Origin: Cohaesibacter haloalkalitolerans
GTDB taxonomy: Bacteria; Pseudomonadota; Alphaproteobacteria; Rhizobiales; Cohaesibacteraceae
NCBI RefSeq assembly: GCF_003574655.1
Contig: NZ_QNUM01000001.1
Location: forward strand, 1 to 64,000
DNA: 64,000 nt
Reading direction: 5' to 3'
The position numbers and the translations under genes were made by a program. Below, piece after piece: positions 42,368-50,324 of the stretch; within the stretch, counting starts at the first letter, position 1, and every line of letters begins with the position of its first letter. A model generated the notes under the pieces. That model saw nothing but the letters and a program-made list of their open reading frames with translations. It made no database searches and was not told where the DNA came from.

Positions 42368-43216
42368 CTAGTTGAAGCTGTCGAACTCTTCCTTGATGCT
42401 GTCGACAATTTCCGCCCGCTGCTGGGCGGACTTGCCTGCATGAGCCGCATAGGTCAGGGCGAGCAGGCGAACCGCGCTGCTCACGGCGGTGAGGGAAGCC
42501 CCAAGAGCAAAGCTTGTCACATGGCAGGGCAGCACCACCTTGGAGACGCGCTGCATCTCGAAAAGCGACGTCCGGTCGGTGATGGTCACTACATTGAGGC
42601 GGCTGGTCTTGGCGTAACTCAGGATCGATTTGAGCAGTGGAGGATGCGGGGGCAAAGTTATCAACAGCAACACGTCCTTCGGGCCGGTCATCGCCAGATC
42701 TTCCGCCCACGACCCCTGATTGATACCCAGCAGCATGACACTGTGGCGCAGCCGCGAAAACAGCAGGCGCACATAACGGGCAATTCCTTCTTCTGCCCCC
42801 AGCCCCAGCACCCAGACGCGCGGAGCCTTGTCGATCAGTTCGGCGGCTTCCCTTATCTTGTCGGAGCGCATTTCCTCGAAAGTGCGCGTCAGATTCTTCA
42901 GTTCCAGCTCCAGATGCGCTCCAATGGCCCGGCCCATGGCCATCTGATCGGAGTTGGTCACTGACAATTCATAGGGTTCGGACTGGTTGCGCTCCTCGCG
43001 GGCCTGAAGCTTCACTTCGTTGAAGTCGGCATAGCCCAGATGCTGGAAGAAGCGGGCCGCCGTTGCCTTGGAAACTCCTGCCATTTCAGCAATTTCGGTC
43101 GCCGAATGCGTGAGAATATCGTCCTGACGATCAAGGATCAGCTGCGCGAGCTTCTTCTCCCCCGCCGTCAGCTTGGCGTATCTCTCCTGAATTCTCAGCA
43201 CAAGGCGCGATGCCAT
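42368..43216 (-). CDS. RpiR/MurR family regulator
   Basis: Regulator of about 282 residues: N-terminal RpiR helix-turn-helix (HSATEIAEMAGVSKATAARFFQHLGYADFNEVKLQ) and a C-terminal SIS sugar-isomerase domain (VWVLGLGAEEGIARYVRLLFSRL). I start it at MASRLVLRIQ, which has CGGAGGAG upstream. It is divergent from the folate-ligase-like/ABC operon and probably represses it. A TGAAAC-N4-GTTTCA palindrome lies between them. RpiR regulators usually sense phosphorylated sugars, so the ligand for this one is an open question. Confidence 0.9.
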   Translation of the reverse strand: MASRLVLRIQERYAKLTAGEKKLAQLILDRQDDILTHSATEIAEMAGVSKATAARFFQHLGYADFNEVKLQAREERNQSEPYELSVTNSDQMAMGRAIGAHLELELKNLTRTFEEMRSDKIREAAELIDKAPRVWVLGLGAEEGIARYVRLLFSRLRHSVMLLGINQGSWAEDLAMTGPKDVLLLITLPPHPPLLKSILSYAKTSRLNVVTITDRTSLFEMQRVSKVVLPCHVTSFALGASLTAVSSAVRLLALTYAAHAGKSAQQRAEIVDSIKEEFDSFN

Positions 43217-43274
43217 CAACTCCTCCGATTCTTTGCAGTAGCATAAAAAAACACTAGCAGCCCTCTTGCAATAA

Positions 43275-43302
43275 TGAAACAACAGTTTCATGATTATGAA
43301 AC
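43275..43302. promoter_or_regulatory. Candidate RpiR operator
   Basis: TGAAACAACAGTTTCA (43275-43290) is a perfect inverted repeat and a third half-site TGAAAC follows at 43297-43302. It is 20-47 bases upstream of the operon's first start codon, where it would block transcription. Only position and symmetry support it. Confidence 0.6.
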
Positions 43303-43321
43303 AGAGAAACGAGAGGACAGC

Positions 43322-44059
43322 ATGAGTCATTCACGGCTGATACGCAAGGGCATATGGCAGCGACTGAAAGATGTCGCCCGGGCCGACGTGCGCTTTCATC
43401 TCGATTTCTCCGAAGTCATTCCCGATTTTGACGGCTCCGATGTGGCCACCGGTCGCGTGTTGGCGCTGGATGCCTTCAAGGACTGCCAGCTTGCCTTCGT
43501 GACACCGGACAATTCCCTCACGCTGCTGCGCCAGAAGATGATCGAGGCGGGCATTCCTCTGGTCATGTCCACCTACAACATCCGTCGCGGCTTCCTCTAT
43601 CTGGAGCCGGGTGTCGTGCCCAGGGGGGCCGAACTCTTTGCCTCATGGCTGGAGGGGATGGAGCATTTTGCAAAACCGGTGTCGCTGGAAGAGATCGCAC
43701 GCAAGGGGCGGTTCGACTTTGCCGCGACCGGCGCATCTGCCGTTTCCTCCCGGGGCATCCGCTTTGGCAAGGGACATGTCTATTTCGATCTCGAATGGGG
43801 CATGTTCACGGATCTGGGTCTCATGGAGGAAAAAACGCCGGTTGTTTCCATCGTGCATGATGTGCAGGTGACCGACGAGAATGTCATCGCCAGCGACCTC
43901 GACATTGCCATCGACATGATCGCGACCCCGGAAAAGCTGATCCGGGTCGAACGAACCGAACGACGCCCACGCGGCATTCGCTGGGATCTTTTGAGCAAAG
44001 ACCAAATTCTGGACATCCCGCCTCTGGCCGAGCTGGCCCGGATCAGGGGCGTTTTATAG
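43322..44059 (+). CDS. 5-formyltetrahydrofolate cyclo-ligase-like protein, copy 1 (COG0212 type)
   Basis: Protein of about 245 residues in the 5-formyl-THF cyclo-ligase (MTHFS) superfamily. The N-terminal basic stretch RLIRKGIWQRLKDVA and the phosphate-loop-like GIRFGKGHVYFDLEW are visible. The latter resembles the GKGxGxxDxE version of the COG0212 subgroup and not the RGGGYYDR of true MTHFS, so it is probably not the housekeeping enzyme. Published comparative genomics ties COG0212 to thiamin metabolism. First gene of the ABC operon; a second copy ends it. Start has GAGAGGA upstream. Confidence 0.85.
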   Translation: MSHSRLIRKGIWQRLKDVARADVRFHLDFSEVIPDFDGSDVATGRVLALDAFKDCQLAFVTPDNSLTLLRQKMIEAGIPLVMSTYNIRRGFLYLEPGVVPRGAELFASWLEGMEHFAKPVSLEEIARKGRFDFAATGASAVSSRGIRFGKGHVYFDLEWGMFTDLGLMEEKTPVVSIVHDVQVTDENVIASDLDIAIDMIATPEKLIRVERTERRPRGIRWDLLSKDQILDIPPLAELARIRGVL

Positions 44060-44098
44060 CAACAACCACACTTCCCGAGACAAATGGAGACACTGAAC

Positions 44099-45073
44099 AT
44101 GAGACTTGCTCTGGACAGACGCCGATTTCTTTCCCTGATGGCAGCATCTGCCGCCCTGCCAACCATGGGCCGCTTTGCAAGCGCTGCATCGCCCTTTGCC
44201 TTTCAGGCTTCCTGGATCAACGATGCCGAATTCACCGGCTATTTCGTTGCCATGGACAAGGGCTACTATGCCGAGGAAGGTCTTGACCTTTCCTATGCAT
44301 CCGGCGGCCCGGACGTCATTCCGGAAAGCACCATTATTGCAGGCAAGGCCGACCTCACGCTGACCACGCCGGACACCACCATCAAGGCGATCACCGAGCA
44401 AGGCGCACCGTTCAAGATCATCGGCACCCAGTATCAGAAGAACCCGATCGGTATCGTTTCTCTGGCCTCCAACCCGATCAAGACTCCTGAAGACCTCATC
44501 GGCAAGACCCTTGCCGTGCCGCCGGTCAACGTGATTTCCGTTGAAGCCATGCTGAAGATCTCCGGCGTCGATCGCTCCAAGATCAACATTGTGCCCTATG
44601 CCTATGATCCGACCCCGCTGATCAAGGGCGAAATCGACGCATCCCTCGACTTCACCACCAACGTGCCGTTCACCATCAAGCAGGCTGGCGCCGACGCGAC
44701 CTCCTTCCTGCTCTATGATTTCGGCTTCACCATCTTCAACGACACCGTTGTTGTCACCGAAGAGACCCTGAAGACCAAACGCAAGGAACTGGTTTCCTTC
44801 CTCAGGGCTTCCCGCAAAGGCTGGGAAGAGAACTTCAAGGATCCGGCCGCCTATCCGCCGAAATTTGCTGACAGCTGGTTCAAGGGCACCGGTCGTTCCA
44901 TCGACAACGAGCTCTATTTCAACAACGCCCAGAAGCCGCTGATCGAAGCCGCCGGCGGCATTTTCTCGATGAGCGAAGAAGCCATCGAAGCCAACATCAA
45001 GGCGCTTGCCGAAGTGGGCATTTCCGCCAAACGCGAACATTTCGACACCACGCTGCTGGAAGAAATTGCATGA
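44099..45073 (+). CDS. NMT1/THI5-like ABC substrate-binding protein
   Basis: Binding protein of about 324 residues with a Tat-like signal: LDRRRFLSLMAASAALP has the twin arginines of the S-R-R-x-F-L pattern. The mature part has the NMT1/ThiY fold markers (FTGYFVAMDKGYYAEEGLDLSYASGG and the IGTQYQKNPIGIVSL segment). ThiY-type proteins bind pyrimidine or formylaminopyrimidine precursors of thiamin; other members bind nitrate, sulfonates or aromatic acids. ATGs at 44084 and 44099 are both in frame; GGAG at nine bases favours 44099. The stop overlaps the ATPase ATG. Confidence 0.86.
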   Translation: MRLALDRRRFLSLMAASAALPTMGRFASAASPFAFQASWINDAEFTGYFVAMDKGYYAEEGLDLSYASGGPDVIPESTIIAGKADLTLTTPDTTIKAITEQGAPFKIIGTQYQKNPIGIVSLASNPIKTPEDLIGKTLAVPPVNVISVEAMLKISGVDRSKINIVPYAYDPTPLIKGEIDASLDFTTNVPFTIKQAGADATSFLLYDFGFTIFNDTVVVTEETLKTKRKELVSFLRASRKGWEENFKDPAAYPPKFADSWFKGTGRSIDNELYFNNAQKPLIEAAGGIFSMSEEAIEANIKALAEVGISAKREHFDTTLLEEIA

Positions 45074-45840
45074 GTGCCGAACACGGTATCACCATCAATC
45101 ACGTGTCGCGATCCTTCAAGGGTCGCGGCGCGGTCGTTCAGGCCCTGAGCGATGTGTCCCTCGCCTGTCCGGAAGGCTCGTTCACGGCCCTGATCGGGCC
45201 GTCGGGCTGTGGCAAGTCGACCATCCTGCGGCTGGCGCTGGGGCTTGATGCTCCGGACACCGGCGATGTGATGATCAGCGGCATGACCCCATTCAAGGCG
45301 GCCAGAAGCGGCAAGACGGGTGTTGCCTTCCAGGATGCGGCACTGATGCCATGGCGCACCGTGGAAGACAATATCATGCTGCCCCTTGACGTGCTCGGGC
45401 ACAAGCGGGCCGACTATCTGGCCGAGGTGGCCAAGCTGGTCGATCTGGTGGGGCTCAACGGTTTCGAAAAGGCACTGCCCGGCGAGCTGTCCGGTGGCAT
45501 GCGCCAGCGCGCGGCCATCGCCCGTGCTCTCATCACCCGCCCGGAAATTCTCTTTCTGGATGAACCCTTTGGCGCGCTCGACCAGATCCTGCGCCGCCAG
45601 ATGAACATCGAGCTGCAACGCATCTGGATGGAAAGCCGGGCAACAACCCTGCTGGTCACCCATGGCATCGACGAGGCCATTTTCCTTGCCGACCGTGTGG
45701 TGGTCATGCAGAGCAAGCCGGGGCGGATCAGCCGCGTCATCGATGTGCCGTTCGACCGGCCACGCAAGCCCGCCCTGTTTTCCGATCCTCGCTTCCATGC
45801 CCTTGAGAAGGAAATCGCGGAGGCGCTGGATGGCCAGTAA
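45070..45840 (+). CDS. ABC transporter ATPase, NitT/TauT/ThiZ-type
   Basis: ATPase of 256 residues. Walker A GPSGCGKST, Q-loop in VAFQDAALMPWRT, signature LSGGMRQRAAIARAL, Walker B LFLDEPFGALD and the switch VTHGIDEA are all intact. It is the usual partner of NMT1-type binding proteins. It starts within ATGA of the upstream stop and overlaps the permease start by 11 bases. Confidence 0.93.
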   Translation: MSAEHGITINHVSRSFKGRGAVVQALSDVSLACPEGSFTALIGPSGCGKSTILRLALGLDAPDTGDVMISGMTPFKAARSGKTGVAFQDAALMPWRTVEDNIMLPLDVLGHKRADYLAEVAKLVDLVGLNGFEKALPGELSGGMRQRAAIARALITRPEILFLDEPFGALDQILRRQMNIELQRIWMESRATTLLVTHGIDEAIFLADRVVVMQSKPGRISRVIDVPFDRPRKPALFSDPRFHALEKEIAEALDGQ

Positions 45841-47440
45841 CAGGACCGCTCCAGAGAGGTCCGACGCCCTCTCCCCGATCCGCAAGCTGCTGCACTCGTC
45901 CACCTTGCGCAACTGGCTCTTGCTGTTGATCATCTGGGAGATCATCGGTCAGTTGCGACTGGTTGCCGATGGTGCCCTGCCTGCGCCATCCGCCATTCTG
46001 GCGCGGCTGTGGGTCGACTGGTCCGACTATCCGCCGCATATTCTGGCGACACTGGAAGGGGCAAGCGCCGGCTTTCTCATCGGCAATGCCCTGGCGATTG
46101 CCGCAGGGGTGCTGTTCGCCATCTTCCCGATCACCCAGCGGCTGGCACGCGGGGTCAATGTGGCGTTGTTCGCCCTGCCGCCGATTGCCGTTTCGCCAAT
46201 CCTTGTCATCACCTTCTCGGGCATGACGCCCCGTATCATTCTGGCGGCCATCGCCTGCTATTTCGTCACCATGAGCGCCACCGTAACCGGCATCCAGCAG
46301 ACCGACCGACGCATTGTCGATGTGGTCCGGGCCTATGGCGGTCGCCAGTGGAAGACGCTTGTTCACGCGCAAATGCGCAGCGCCATCCCATCCATATTGG
46401 CGGGCCTCAGGATTGCGGCCCCCAATGCGGTTCTTGGCTCCATTCTAGCGGAGTTCGGCGGCGGCGGTCGGTATGGACTGGGGGTCTATCTGATCGGTTC
46501 GCTTGGCCGGGGCGAGCCCGACCGACTGTGGGGAATCGGTCTATCAGCAACTGTGATTGCGGGGCTCGCCTATCTCCTCTTCTCCCTGCTGGCAACCCGC
46601 CTCACAGGAGCATCCAAGGCCGTTACCGTGCCAGCCAGTCCGCCAGCAACCAAGGCCGAGAAAAATCCGCTGGTCGAAGCAGCTCTGATCACGGTGTCCT
46701 TTGCCTTGCCGTTCCTGTTATGGGGGCTGTTGCTCTCCATCATGGGCACTCCGGCGATGATCGCCAAGACGCCGCTTGGCGTGTTTGACTATCTGTTCAT
46801 GATGCCCAACAGCCCGGCAAGCCTTGGCAAGCTGGCGATGGCCCTCAGCGAAACCCTGCCGATGACGATGATCGGCATGGCCATGGGGCTGTTCTTTGCC
46901 TTTGCGCTGGCGCTTTGTTCGGTGCTTTATCCGGCCATCATTCGCGGCTTCATGCCCGTGGCGCTGGTCACCCAGACCATGCCACTGGTCGCCTTGACGC
47001 CGCTGTTGGTGCTGATCCTCGGGCGCGGCCCCTCGGTCATCCTGTGGATCACCGTGTCGGTCACCTTCTTTCCGGCCTTCGTCACCATGGCACAAGGCCT
47101 GTCCATGGTGTCGCGCGCCGCCATCGAGGTGCCCAAGGCCTATGGTGCCGGACCGGTCAAGCAGCTCTGGCTGGTCTCCATTCCAGCCTCCCTGCCCTAT
47201 CTGTTTGCCGCAACCCGGCTTGCGGTTCCCCGGGCGCTGCTGGGTGTGATGATTGCCGAGTGGCTCGCCACCGGCAAGGGCCTTGGCAATCTGCTCAACC
47301 AGTCCCGCGGCTACCTCGACTATGGCATGATCTGGTCGGTCGCAGTGGTTTCGGTGCTGATATCCGTTCTCTTCTATCAAATCGTGGTCGCCATCGAACA
47401 TCGCGTGCTTACCAAGCGCGGCATGGCACCTGCACAATAA
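45830..47440 (+). CDS. Fused two-domain ABC permease of the NMT1-type importer
   Basis: Membrane protein of about 536 residues formed by two permease domains of the BPD_transp_1 (SsuC/TauC/ThiX) type in tandem. Each half has about six hydrophobic segments and its own cytoplasmic EAA-like loop: VVRAYGGRQWKTLVHAQMRSAIPSIL-like near residue 162 and VPKAYGAGPVKQLWLVSIPASLPYL-like near residue 440. Most such permeases have one domain and act as homodimers, so this one would span as a single chain. Start 45830 lies in the ATPase end; longer open frames are spurious. Confidence 0.88.
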   Translation: MASNRTAPERSDALSPIRKLLHSSTLRNWLLLLIIWEIIGQLRLVADGALPAPSAILARLWVDWSDYPPHILATLEGASAGFLIGNALAIAAGVLFAIFPITQRLARGVNVALFALPPIAVSPILVITFSGMTPRIILAAIACYFVTMSATVTGIQQTDRRIVDVVRAYGGRQWKTLVHAQMRSAIPSILAGLRIAAPNAVLGSILAEFGGGGRYGLGVYLIGSLGRGEPDRLWGIGLSATVIAGLAYLLFSLLATRLTGASKAVTVPASPPATKAEKNPLVEAALITVSFALPFLLWGLLLSIMGTPAMIAKTPLGVFDYLFMMPNSPASLGKLAMALSETLPMTMIGMAMGLFFAFALALCSVLYPAIIRGFMPVALVTQTMPLVALTPLLVLILGRGPSVILWITVSVTFFPAFVTMAQGLSMVSRAAIEVPKAYGAGPVKQLWLVSIPASLPYLFAATRLAVPRALLGVMIAEWLATGKGLGNLLNQSRGYLDYGMIWSVAVVSVLISVLFYQIVVAIEHRVLTKRGMAPAQ

Positions 47441-47459
47441 GACATCACGGAGTTTCCCC

Positions 47460-48200
47460 ATGGATATTGTTGATCACAAGATCAAAGTCCGCGAGCGCGT
47501 TTGGCGCGAGTTGCGCAAGGTCGCTGTTCCCGACAGCCGCTTCCACTTCGATTTTGGCGAATTCATCGCCGATTTCGAAGGCGGCGAAGCAGCAGTTCAG
47601 CGGCTGGTTGACCATGAATACTACCAGAAATCGAACTATATCTTCATCACGCCGGACAACTGCCTCGACCGCCTGCGCCTCAAGGCGCTGGAAGACGGCA
47701 AGACGGTGCTGATGACGACCTATTCGATCAAGCGCGGCTTCTGGCTGCTCGATCCGAAGACGATTGCTCCGGAGCTCTATCTCTATGCCTCGACACTGGA
47801 CGGCATGGAACGGGTTGGCCGACCGGTCAGCCTCAAGGAGCTCGCCGAGATGCCAAAGGTCGACTATATGGTCACCGGCACGGGCGCCATCAACACCAAG
47901 GGCATCCGCTTCGGCAAGGGCCATGGCTTCTTCGACAGCGAATGGGGCATGCTCTACCAGATCGGTCGGATCTCCACCGAAACCCCGTCGGCAGCCGTGG
48001 TGCATGATTGCCAGCTGCTGGAAGAGGAACTGACGCCGGATGTCTATGACACGGTTGCCGACGCCATCTTCACACCGACCCGGACCATTCTGGTCGATGG
48101 GCCACACAAGCCGACCTGCGGTATTCTGTGGGACCGTCTCGATCCGGTGATGTTCGAGACCATTCCGCCGCTGCAGGAACTCAAAGCCATGGGCCTGTGA
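47460..48200 (+). CDS. 5-formyltetrahydrofolate cyclo-ligase-like protein, copy 2 (COG0212 type)
   Basis: Protein of 246 residues, paralogue of the 43322 gene with the same overall layout (IKVRERVWRELRKVAVPDSRFHFDFGEFI at the start and GIRFGKGHGFFDSEWGML in the loop). Similarity between the copies is clear throughout but they are not near-identical, so the duplication is old or they diverged in role. It closes the operon, 20 bases after the permease, with CGGAG upstream. Neither copy has a signal peptide, so both act in the cytoplasm on what the importer delivers or on its products. Confidence 0.85.
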   Translation: MDIVDHKIKVRERVWRELRKVAVPDSRFHFDFGEFIADFEGGEAAVQRLVDHEYYQKSNYIFITPDNCLDRLRLKALEDGKTVLMTTYSIKRGFWLLDPKTIAPELYLYASTLDGMERVGRPVSLKELAEMPKVDYMVTGTGAINTKGIRFGKGHGFFDSEWGMLYQIGRISTETPSAAVVHDCQLLEEELTPDVYDTVADAIFTPTRTILVDGPHKPTCGILWDRLDPVMFETIPPLQELKAMGL

Positions 48201-48409: not shown

Positions 48410-49339
48410 TCACACCTCGCCCTTGCCCATGAGGGGAATGATCGAGCCATCGACCGCACACTCTGCCACCCGCTCGCGCAGCATCTCGGTCAGGCGCAGA
48501 ACCATCGGGTCAGGATCATCATCGCGATGGCGAATTACCCCGAATGCCACCCAGCGGGTGGGCGACAGGGGACGGGTGGTAATCAGCCGGTCATCCATGG
48601 CCAGCACGCTCAGCCGATCAATGATGGTCACTCCGGCACCGTTGGCAACAAGATACTGGGCCATCTGCGAAGACCCGGCCAGCACTTCGTGCTCGATCCG
48701 CACGTCATGGGCATCGAACAGGGCGTCGGTCTGGCGCCGCAGCAACATGCCCGGAAATTGCTGCACCAGCGGCACGGTCGCCAGATCCTGAAGGGTCACC
48801 ACCTCCTTCCGGGCAAAGGGATGGTCGGTGGGCATCAGCACCTCCAGCACCGTCCGGCCGATCGGCGTGCTCTCCGCAGCCCAGTGGGTGATAGGGACGT
48901 TGCCGAACCCCAGGTCATACTCCCGCCCGTTGATCCAGCTTTCGATATCCCGGTGCGACCGGATGTCGAGAGACAGTTTGACGTCGGGATTCTCGCGCGT
49001 GAACCGGGCGACGACGGGCGCCACCACCGACAGCGCGGCGCGCGGCATGGTCACCATCCGCAGCCGCTTGAGCCGATGGGCGCGGATTTCCTCGGCAATC
49101 CGCGGGATCTCGCTAAGACCGGCCAGAATCCGTCGAGCCTCGCGGTTGAAGGCTTGCCCCTCCTCGGTGAGATAGAGCCGCTGCTTTTCGCGCCGGAACA
49201 GCGAAATATGCAACTCGCTTTCCAGCAGCATGATCAGGCGACTGACCGCAGGCTGGCTCAGGTTCATCACCCGCGCCGCGCCGCTGACTGTTCCTTCCTG
49301 AACGACGGCGTTGAACGCTTGCAGCTCCTTGATATTCAT
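48410..49339 (-). CDS. LysR family regulator
   Basis: Regulator of 309 residues with an N-terminal winged helix (GTVSGAARVMNLSQPAVSRLIMLLESEL) and a periplasmic-binding-like effector domain. It is divergent from the alpha/beta hydrolase - carrier - M20 operon, 118 bases away, the normal arrangement for a LysR activator. It lacks OxyR-type cysteines. The effector is unknown; a substrate of the divergent operon is most likely. Confidence 0.9.
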   Translation of the reverse strand: MNIKELQAFNAVVQEGTVSGAARVMNLSQPAVSRLIMLLESELHISLFRREKQRLYLTEEGQAFNREARRILAGLSEIPRIAEEIRAHRLKRLRMVTMPRAALSVVAPVVARFTRENPDVKLSLDIRSHRDIESWINGREYDLGFGNVPITHWAAESTPIGRTVLEVLMPTDHPFARKEVVTLQDLATVPLVQQFPGMLLRRQTDALFDAHDVRIEHEVLAGSSQMAQYLVANGAGVTIIDRLSVLAMDDRLITTRPLSPTRWVAFGVIRHRDDDPDPMVLRLTEMLRERVAECAVDGSIIPLMGKGEV

Positions 49340-49457
49340 GACGCAACCGATACTTCATCAGCAAATTTTATAATCTTATCGACACCATGCATTATGCATA
49401 TGAACTGCCCGTCTTTACAGTGAAATCATCAAGACACTCAAAGAAACGAGGTACAGC
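49340..49457. promoter_or_regulatory. Divergent LysR control region
   Basis: AT-rich gap containing ATGCATTATGCAT (49387-49399) and a TATAAT sequence near 49367. The first is a repeated palindromic hexamer and a candidate LysR site, though the standard T-N11-A pattern is not unique enough to fix it. Confidence 0.4.
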
Positions 49458-50324
49458 ATGTCCTCACAAGAGCCATCGCCCTGGTCGGCTCCGCTGATGG
49501 AACTGGTCCGGTCCCTGCCAGCGCGGCAGAGCGTGGAGGTCAACGGGCTGCCGATATCCTACCGCTCCATGGGCGAAGGCAGGCCAATTCTCTTTTTGCA
49601 TGGCCTTCTGGGCAGTGCAGACAGCTGGCTGTTTCAGTTGCACGACCTGTCATCCCGCTACCAAATCATTTCGTGGGACGCGCCAGGCTATGGGCAATCC
49701 GCCGAAGTCGAACCGGACATCGAGGTGTTTGCCGAGCAGTTGCGCGGCTTCATCGCGAAACTGGCGCTGCCATCCCTGACCGTTGTCGGCCATTCCATGG
49801 GTGGAACGCTGGCGGCCCGGGTTGCCGCCGACCCTGAGCCGCGGATCGGGCGGGTGATCCTCTCCTGCACGCACCCGGGTTATGGCGAGCCTTTGGATAC
49901 GCCCCCAACCGCCAAACTTGTCGACCGGATCCGCGCACTCAAGGAAGAAGGAGGCGAGGCCTACGGCCGGGAACGGGCCACCAACATGGTCGCCCATCCG
50001 GTGGATCCCTTCGCCCTGGAAACGGCAGCCTATGTCGCCTCAGGCACCAAGGCCGACGGCCTGTTCTCGGCAACGCGGATGCTGCAATTTGCCGATCTGC
50101 GCTCCTTCTACGAGAAGATCACGATCCCGATGCTGGTGCTTTTCGCCCAGAAGGATCCTGTCGTCCGGCCCGAACTTTCCGCCGAACTCAGGGCTCTGAC
50201 ACCACAGGCAACACAAAAGACATTGCCCAACGTGGGCCATGCGCCCTATCTGGAGGACAAGGAAAACTATGAACAGGTCATCACATCTTTCATCGAACAT
50301 TCCTCCAGTCATTCCGAGCCATGA
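49458..50324 (+). CDS. Alpha/beta-fold hydrolase
   Basis: Hydrolase of 288 residues. The oxyanion motif HGLLGSADSW, nucleophile elbow VVGHSMGGTLA and late NVGHAPYLEDKE (His) give the catalytic triad, with Asp probably in AQKDPVV. No signal peptide. Esterases, lactonases and C-C hydrolases share this pattern, so the substrate is not decidable. First gene of an operon with a DcuC-type carrier and an M20 peptidase. Confidence 0.85.
   Translation: MSSQEPSPWSAPLMELVRSLPARQSVEVNGLPISYRSMGEGRPILFLHGLLGSADSWLFQLHDLSSRYQIISWDAPGYGQSAEVEPDIEVFAEQLRGFIAKLALPSLTVVGHSMGGTLAARVAADPEPRIGRVILSCTHPGYGEPLDTPPTAKLVDRIRALKEEGGEAYGRERATNMVAHPVDPFALETAAYVASGTKADGLFSATRMLQFADLRSFYEKITIPMLVLFAQKDPVVRPELSAELRALTPQATQKTLPNVGHAPYLEDKENYEQVITSFIEHSSSHSEP

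Follow-up and report, generated by a model that had tools for sequence, protein, structure and literature searches.

A 64,000-nucleotide stretch of Cohaesibacter haloalkalitolerans DNA (contig NZ_QNUM01000001.1; hereafter the window) contains an operon of two COG0212-type genes, copy 1 and copy 2, on either side of genes for an NMT1-type ATP-binding cassette (ABC) importer, and transcribed divergently from a gene for an RpiR-family regulator. Our tentative reading, drawn from sequence comparison, is that RpiR controls the salvage of a nucleobase-like, perhaps purine-type, compound on which both paralogues act. This reading is supported by synteny over three proteobacterial groups, by the neighbors of the COG0212 genes of subgroup A, to which both copies belong, by the presence of thiamin systems elsewhere in the genome, and by a predicted fold shared with MTHFS (5-formyltetrahydrofolate cyclo-ligase, 5-FCL; EC 6.3.3.2). 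An earlier prediction made from this DNA (the original prediction) had described the arrangement of the operon, and open reading frames and Pfam matches placed every gene where it had been described. The parts, together with a palindrome, are:

42368..43216, minus strand: MurR/RpiR-family regulator (Pfam HTH_6 and SIS; start MASRLV deduced from the open reading frame)
43275..43290, no strand: palindrome TGAAAC-AACA-GTTTCA in the RpiR–copy 1 gap, presumed RpiR operator (putative RpiR binding)
43322..44059, plus strand: COG0212-type copy 1, 245 residues (PF01812, 35.8 bits; cut-off 27; start refined from sequence)
44099..45073, plus strand: NMT1/THI5-like binding protein with an RR-containing leader (PF09084; leader and start assigned by eye)
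45070..45840, plus strand: ABC transporter ATPase (ABC_tran, PF00005, 107.4 bits)
45830..47440, plus strand: fused two-domain ABC permease, 536 residues (BPD_transp_1, PF00528, two stretches in one chain; start refined from sequence)
47460..48200, plus strand: COG0212-type copy 2, 246 residues (PF01812, 45.3 bits; cut-off 27)

Copy 1 has two candidate starts, ATG 43274 and ATG 43322. Because the first falls within the palindrome, the second is the likelier, and it gives a protein of 245 residues, a length common to many homologues.

The association of the cassette genes is not due to chance. In a contig scan of the best 80 of 162 relatives, many of them close kin, we scored 79 subgroup-A loci: 48 had both copies together with RpiR, the binding protein, and the permease; 19 had a single detected copy plus the binding protein and permease, and RpiR was also present in 16 of these; and 12 lacked this binding protein. 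The original prediction had suggested looking for the same neighborhood across Rhizobiales, and the full gene order is indeed kept there, as it is in Burkholderiales, in Salinicola, and at two Rhodobacterales loci (L038 and L045; L numbers denote collected loci). Other Rhodobacterales loci (e.g. L084, L085, L094-L096, and L098-L101) have RpiR, copy 1, and the importer, with no copy 2 within the stretch. Both copies were present in 7 of 18 genomes of the window's genus, and the remaining 11 gave no match, one of these being only 64% complete. Across the order, a subgroup-A gene is present in 26 of 397 genomes (matches above 300 bits), and any match in 49; in an even sample of the phylum, 3 of 398 genomes gave a match, the source genome among them. 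We found no paper in the open-licence literature that names the two-paralogue operon, and a term search for 'ligase' found nothing in PMC5806882, PMC7948467, and PMC6219798. Downstream of the operon, at window positions 48410-50324, lie a LysR regulator gene (minus strand) and an alpha/beta hydrolase gene (plus strand), close homologues of which were seen beside the cassette at none of the compared cassette loci.

Both copies carry the GKGxxxxDxEW loop that had been claimed for them, as GKGHVYFDLEW in copy 1 and GKGHGFFDSEW in copy 2, and they are 40% identical to each other. The claim that they are COG0212-type proteins rather than housekeeping MTHFS also held. An MTHFS model gave copy 2 a score of 21.7 bits against a cut-off of 84.9 and did not match copy 1; one more PF01812 gene in the genome, on contig 23 (99.9 bits), is presumed to encode the normal MTHFS. 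A maximum-likelihood tree of 83 rows (13 MTHFS, including that of the same genome, and 70 COG0212), which was midpoint-rooted and drew a long-branch warning from the tool, separated MTHFS from COG0212 rows with 100/100 support. Both copies thus lie outside housekeeping MTHFS, the grouping that the original prediction had named as counting against it. Subgroup A comprised 55 of the 70 COG0212 rows (100/100 support), divided into a copy 1 clade of 28 rows (99/96), a copy 2 clade of 23 rows that includes Chloroflexota (99/96), and four other rows, archaeal or Chloroflexi. These separate clades indicate, at the level of sequence, that copy 1 and copy 2 are old paralogues and not recent duplicates.

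An AF2 model of copy 2 had a pLDDT of 90.9, and its best Foldseek matches were MTHFS structures (2jcb, 6.4e-10; human 3hy6, 6.6e-8; 3hy4, 1.8e-7). A profile alignment spans the glycine loop and then the HDCQ and D-A-I segments; Pentatricopeptide matches of copy 2 were judged to be a repeat artefact. The window copies therefore resemble MTHFS in predicted fold and glycine loop, but differ from it in splitting off in the tree, in scoring below family cut-offs, and in having a conserved N-terminal stretch around RFHxDF. With the COG0212 paralogue of 5-FCL (plant At1g76730 and archaeal homologues) they share the loop, the predicted fold, and the separation from MTHFS; unlike it, they belong to subgroup A, come with their own palindrome and importer and as two old paralogues per operon, and have relatives within subgroup A that adjoin nucleobase genes in some lineages. 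Import of a folate or pterin, with the copies serving as extra 5-FCL enzymes, would be consistent with the predicted fold and ATP loop. However, both copies fail the MTHFS models and split from MTHFS in the tree, a normal MTHFS is already encoded in the genome, and the plant COG0212 protein is listed in PMC3223725 as unable to replace 5-FCL; we consider this explanation very improbable.

The RpiR–copy 1 gap contains the only GAAAC-N4-GTTTC site within the 64-kb window. Among 70 divergent RpiR–COG0212 gaps, which are not independent loci, GAAAC-N(2 to 8)-GTTTC occurred in 47, always with a spacer of exactly 4 bases and variable sequence; the TGAAA...TTTCA form, the only one for which a random background was drawn, occurred in 42, against a mean of 0.9 (maximum 6, 200 draws) in equal-length random stretches of the same loci. 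A search covering the window and the collected loci (2.84 Mb of the latter) found 57 GAAAC-N4-GTTTC sites near both RpiR and COG0212 genes and 15 others, with ~2.7 expected by chance. The full TGAAAC...GTTTCA form was present in 8 of those 15, five of which (L075, L077, L099, L102, and L123) adjoin operon genes or split parts of the operon; the remaining three (L186-L188) are in short or unannotated stretches at subgroup-A genes. We infer from this pattern that the palindrome is an operator through which RpiR would regulate the operon.

The class of compound is suggested by genes that adjoin subgroup-A genes in relatives of the window operon. In 11 of 13 betaproteobacterial loci, a gene for a PF00962-type deaminase (assigned by Pfam on L072, by NCBIfam on L072 and L057, and by sequence match for the other nine) lies behind copy 2 on the same strand, and the gap between the two is 24 bases in L066, L068, L069, L072, and L073. 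The nearest solved chains to the L072 deaminase are 3ou8, 3pan, 3pao, and 3pbm (3.4e-114) and 3rys (4.9e-104), with adenosine deaminases next at 1.5e-35 and weaker. We take the first four to belong to Pa0148, which, according to the title of a 2011 report by Goble cited in PMC6281700, reportedly 'catalyzes the deamination of adenine'. In a gammaproteobacterial metagenome-assembled genome (L093), the gene order is RpiR, then copy 1, a phosphoribosyltransferase, and an NCS1 permease; the transferase scores over the NF004689 cut-off, and three of its four solved matches are named adenine transferases. An NCS1 permease gene also lies behind the subgroup-A gene of L191 (Chloroflexota), a nucleoside hydrolase gene stands beside that of L192, and at L055 and L080 subgroup-A genes are accompanied by genes for a nucleoside hydrolase and for a PfkB/ADP-ribosylglycohydrolase fusion. 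These neighbors amount to few independent events, yet they agree in class. As a partial control, nucleobase markers were absent from 31 'B' loci, save for a weak nucleoside hydrolase at one broken subgroup-A locus that is present twice; the 31 include broken or split subgroup-A genes read in pieces (L029, L075, L086, and L153) and three non-alphaproteobacterial loci (L105, L151, and L152).

Importer genes of the ECF type, also taken as favoring the nucleobase reading, precede the COG0212 gene at five Thermoproteota loci (L199-L203) and at Chloroflexota L190; they encode a small protein, a CbiQ-sized protein, and a dual-ATPase-sized protein. At L199, the one locus where Pfam confirmed EcfT (CbiQ, 70 bits), the small protein matched QueT below cut-off (24.5 versus 33.7 bits); for the small proteins of L200, L190, L201, and L202, Pfam gave nothing or MASE1 below cut-off. 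On a Chloroflexi contig (L078:3016-8637), two tandem subgroup-A genes occur with a gene for a 317-residue protein without a Pfam match and one for a dual-ATPase ECF-like protein.

Several observations, including thiamin and biuret links set out below, weigh against the nucleobase reading. NCBIfam calls the deaminases of L072 and L057 'adenosine deaminase', over two cut-offs, and the 'adenine' label rests on nearest structures and recall. The nucleoside hydrolases of L055 and L192 match the RihA, RihC, and UriH models (pyrimidine or mixed) below cut-off; these matches therefore do not tell whether the two hydrolases are specific for purines. The 11 deaminase loci are relatives, and each of the other nucleobase links was seen at 1-3 loci, counts that stand without a genome-wide background. 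A purine or nucleoside enzyme or permease adjoins the COG0212 gene in some relatives, but purine markers adjoin no standard Rhizobiales operon, that of the window included. A comparison of 16 genomes from the window's family, made up of 15 of the 18 from the genus plus one other, found a Pa0148-like deaminase (above 320 bits) in none of the 7 that have the operon and in 6 of the 9 that lack it (Fisher p 0.011, uncorrected for kinship). The deaminase link is therefore not general, and coupling to an adenine deaminase is not supported in the window's family. In addition, RpiR/SIS regulators often sense sugar phosphates.

The original prediction had proposed salvage of a thiamin-, pyrimidine-, or pterin-like compound. 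Uptake and cytoplasmic processing of an N-heterocycle still fits the operon; the thiamin part of that proposal has been weakened by the genome's own thiamin units, its better ThiY, and the sparseness of thiamin markers. In the thiamin version, a pyrimidine such as hydroxymethylpyrimidine (HMP) or formylaminopyrimidine would be salvaged and the COG0212 enzymes would act in thiamin repair. A 2011 paper by Pribat et al. reportedly ties COG0212 to thiamin in its title, and its abstract is said to describe a minority of COG0212 genes as clustering with genes for the metabolism or transport of thiamin; among the importers behind that clustering, some may be like the window importer.

The binding protein matched PF09084 at 154.2 bits (cut-off 20.5), and its nearest solved chains are 4nmy (3.3e-16) and ThiY 3ix1 (1.3e-15), the record of which names a formylaminopyrimidine binding protein. 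The relationship to ThiY favors a thiamin pyrimidine as ligand. However, the ThiY encoded on contig 17 of the same genome matches 3ix1 at 3.9e-37, and the window protein is 25% identical to it over the aligned part, so that the ThiY orthology proposed as a check is not borne out. Furthermore, the ThiY motif W-x-x-N-x-x-H reads W-[IV]-N-D-A-E-F in 10 of 10 aligned binding proteins, the N and H being replaced by D and F in a by-eye comparison. The likeness of the window operon to the ThiXYZ formylaminopyrimidine/HMP importer lies in an NMT1/THI5-like binding protein with an ABC importer; the differences lie in its fused permease (the ThiX-like permease of the same genome is single-domain), in having no TPP (thiamin pyrophosphate) riboswitch, and in that no adjacent thi genes were found outside Salinicola. 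A sulfonate importer, the alternative that the original prediction had named as counting against it, was rejected, as the binding protein scored 34.8 bits with the SsuA_fam model, below its cut-off of 163.5.

Two TPP riboswitches are present in the genome, both outside the window. The one on contig 17 precedes ThiM-ThiE-ThiD-NMT1 binding protein-ATPase-single-domain permease, with the enzymes assigned by Pfam as hydroxyethylthiazole kinase, thiamin phosphate synthase, and phosphomethylpyrimidine kinase, and this unit is a salvage operon of the ordinary ThiXYZ type; the other leads a unit on contig 19 for which Pfam was run on the first gene only. A TPP riboswitch had been among the checks suggested, but Rfam gave no match in the 64-kb window, and no thi genes were seen in the window operon. 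At 28 further scanned subgroup-A loci (Rfam scans of 9, 8, 4, and 7 loci, the first 17 without any Rfam match), no TPP riboswitch precedes the subgroup-A gene, although the stretches of L083 and L097 end near the gene. TPP matches in the remaining scanned loci lead other units, namely TenA at L064, ThiC at L058, the thi operon at L107, and the thiamin units of the source genome. We also sought thiamin markers within at most ~10 kb on each side of 102 subgroup-A loci, among which some genomes are repeated (e.g. L080, L081, and L056) and many are close kin. ThiD, ThiO, ThiG, ThiE, ThiF, ThiY, and ThiM were near none of the 102, and 97 of the 102 had no marker of the set ThiC, D, E, F, G, M, O, Y, and TenA (ThiL and ThiN lie outside the set).

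The other five loci, all from Salinicola and making up 5 of 5 loci of that genus, have ThiC (four loci) or TenA (one locus) on the opposite strand. ThiC is next after copy 2 and convergent with it at L058 (9731-12955), L060, and L063, and lies ~7 kb from copy 2 at L061; TenA is next after copy 2 at L064. At the two of these loci scanned by Rfam, L058 and L064, the TPP riboswitches lead ThiC and TenA on the opposite strand and not copy 2. The adjacency of thiamin genes and operon has the look of a single event confined to one genus and could reflect chance placement, but it still counts for the thiamin reading. So does the finding that, at 2 of 12 archaeal core loci, the COG0212 gene lies next to a ThiD-like one; in Thermoproteota, any COG0212 match was found in 146 of 240 genomes. 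There is also a printed link: a plant COG0212 protein is listed as 'not a 5-FCL enzyme; involved in thiamine salvage' (PMC3223725), the biochemical function of the COG0212 protein is called unknown (PMC4120688), and plant COG0212 is co-expressed with PLUTO, a nucleobase transporter also carrying HMP (PMC5874261). Because PLUTO carries both, the NCS1 neighbors of subgroup-A genes could be HMP carriers, and the L191 permease has a CytX match, albeit below cut-off (77.9 versus 309.85 bits). Given the separate thiamin units and the marker counts, we rank a thiamin role for the window operon second to the nucleobase reading and regard it as fairly unlikely. The 450-residue ThiD-like genes beside archaeal core COG0212 genes are at L208:8062-10155 and L209:7740-9803.

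Subgroup B of COG0212, ~30% identical to copy 2, points to a different type of compound. Genes of this subgroup recur in Rhizobiales biuret/cyanuric-acid operons (L108 and L130-L147; e.g. L143:7604-16519 and L142:7226-17001), together with a BMP importer, biuret hydrolase (BiuH), AtzE, AtzH, and often formamidase or AtzD; AtzH is present at 19 of 21 loci (L108 and L130-L149). By analogy, the window operon could take up a urea- or triazine-like nitrogen compound. The two kinds of operon are alike in having a COG0212 gene beside an ABC importer, and the two cassettes are adjacent in Roseinatronobacter. They differ in COG0212 subgroup, in transporter class, and in their enzymes, and AtzH, BiuH, AtzD, and formamidase markers were found at 0 of 102 subgroup-A loci, which makes this analogy a decidedly unlikely guide to the ligand. 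The Roseinatronobacter arrangement is on a plasmid (L103:5991-13060), where a subgroup-B gene and BMP importer adjoin an RpiR-copy 1-NMT1 cassette. In Roseicitreum (L107:477-8681), a thi operon with a TPP riboswitch is divergent from LysR-COG0212(B)-BMP importer genes, an arrangement that is one possible source of the family's thiamin association.

Transporters of at least four classes (NMT1, BMP, NCS1, and ECF-type) are encoded beside COG0212 genes, and coupling to transport is thus as constant as any link to an enzyme. This constancy would suit an operon that imports an NMT1-type ligand of an unrelated kind, in which the COG0212 proteins would be accessories that sense the ligand or are coupled to its transport and are devoid of cyclo-ligase chemistry. 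Retention of the MTHFS ATP loop and the presence of enzyme neighbors in several lineages argue against accessories of this kind, and we judge them improbable.

Under the nucleobase reading, the NMT1-family binding protein, fused permease, and ATPase would, to judge from their families, import the nucleobase-like compound. In the cytoplasm, copy 1 and copy 2 would process it; the fold and the retained loop suggest that they probably use ATP to activate the oxygen of a formamide or amide, as MTHFS does. The product may then feed purine salvage or degradation, as the deaminase, phosphoribosyltransferase, and nucleoside hydrolase neighbors in relatives suggest. A more specific proposal can be made by analogy. 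MTHFS phosphorylates the N-formyl oxygen of its substrate (N5-formyl and N10), and a neighboring amine closes the ring; PurM carries out like chemistry on formylglycinamidine. Because of this ring-closing chemistry, closure of a formamidopyrimidine to a purine would be a direct analogue. The paralogues would then be ATP-dependent formamidopyrimidine cyclo-ligases served by a ThiY-like importer that brings in the formamidopyrimidine: copy 1 and copy 2 would phosphorylate the formyl oxygen of a ring-opened purine (FapyAde, FapyGua, or N-methyl forms), and the neighboring amine would close the imidazole ring to give adenine or guanine. Such a reaction would agree with a binding protein of distant likeness to ThiY, with the deaminase, and with the adenine-type phosphoribosyltransferase, but in this specific form we hold the idea to be unlikely. 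More widely, and again by analogy, each COG0212 enzyme would act on an N-formylated amine that stems from an N-heterocycle, be it a thiamin pyrimidine, a purine, or a triazine.

Proteins of the COG0212 family are found in plants, archaea, and bacteria and are usually annotated as folate enzymes; we know of no reaction assigned to them. The operon described here joins two old paralogues, one importer, and one palindrome, and this combination offers a handle for assays, as the substrate of the family may follow from the ligand of the binding protein. If the ring-closing proposal is true, the operon would encode a route by which damaged purine bases are repaired and salvaged, one that, to our knowledge, is known in no organism.

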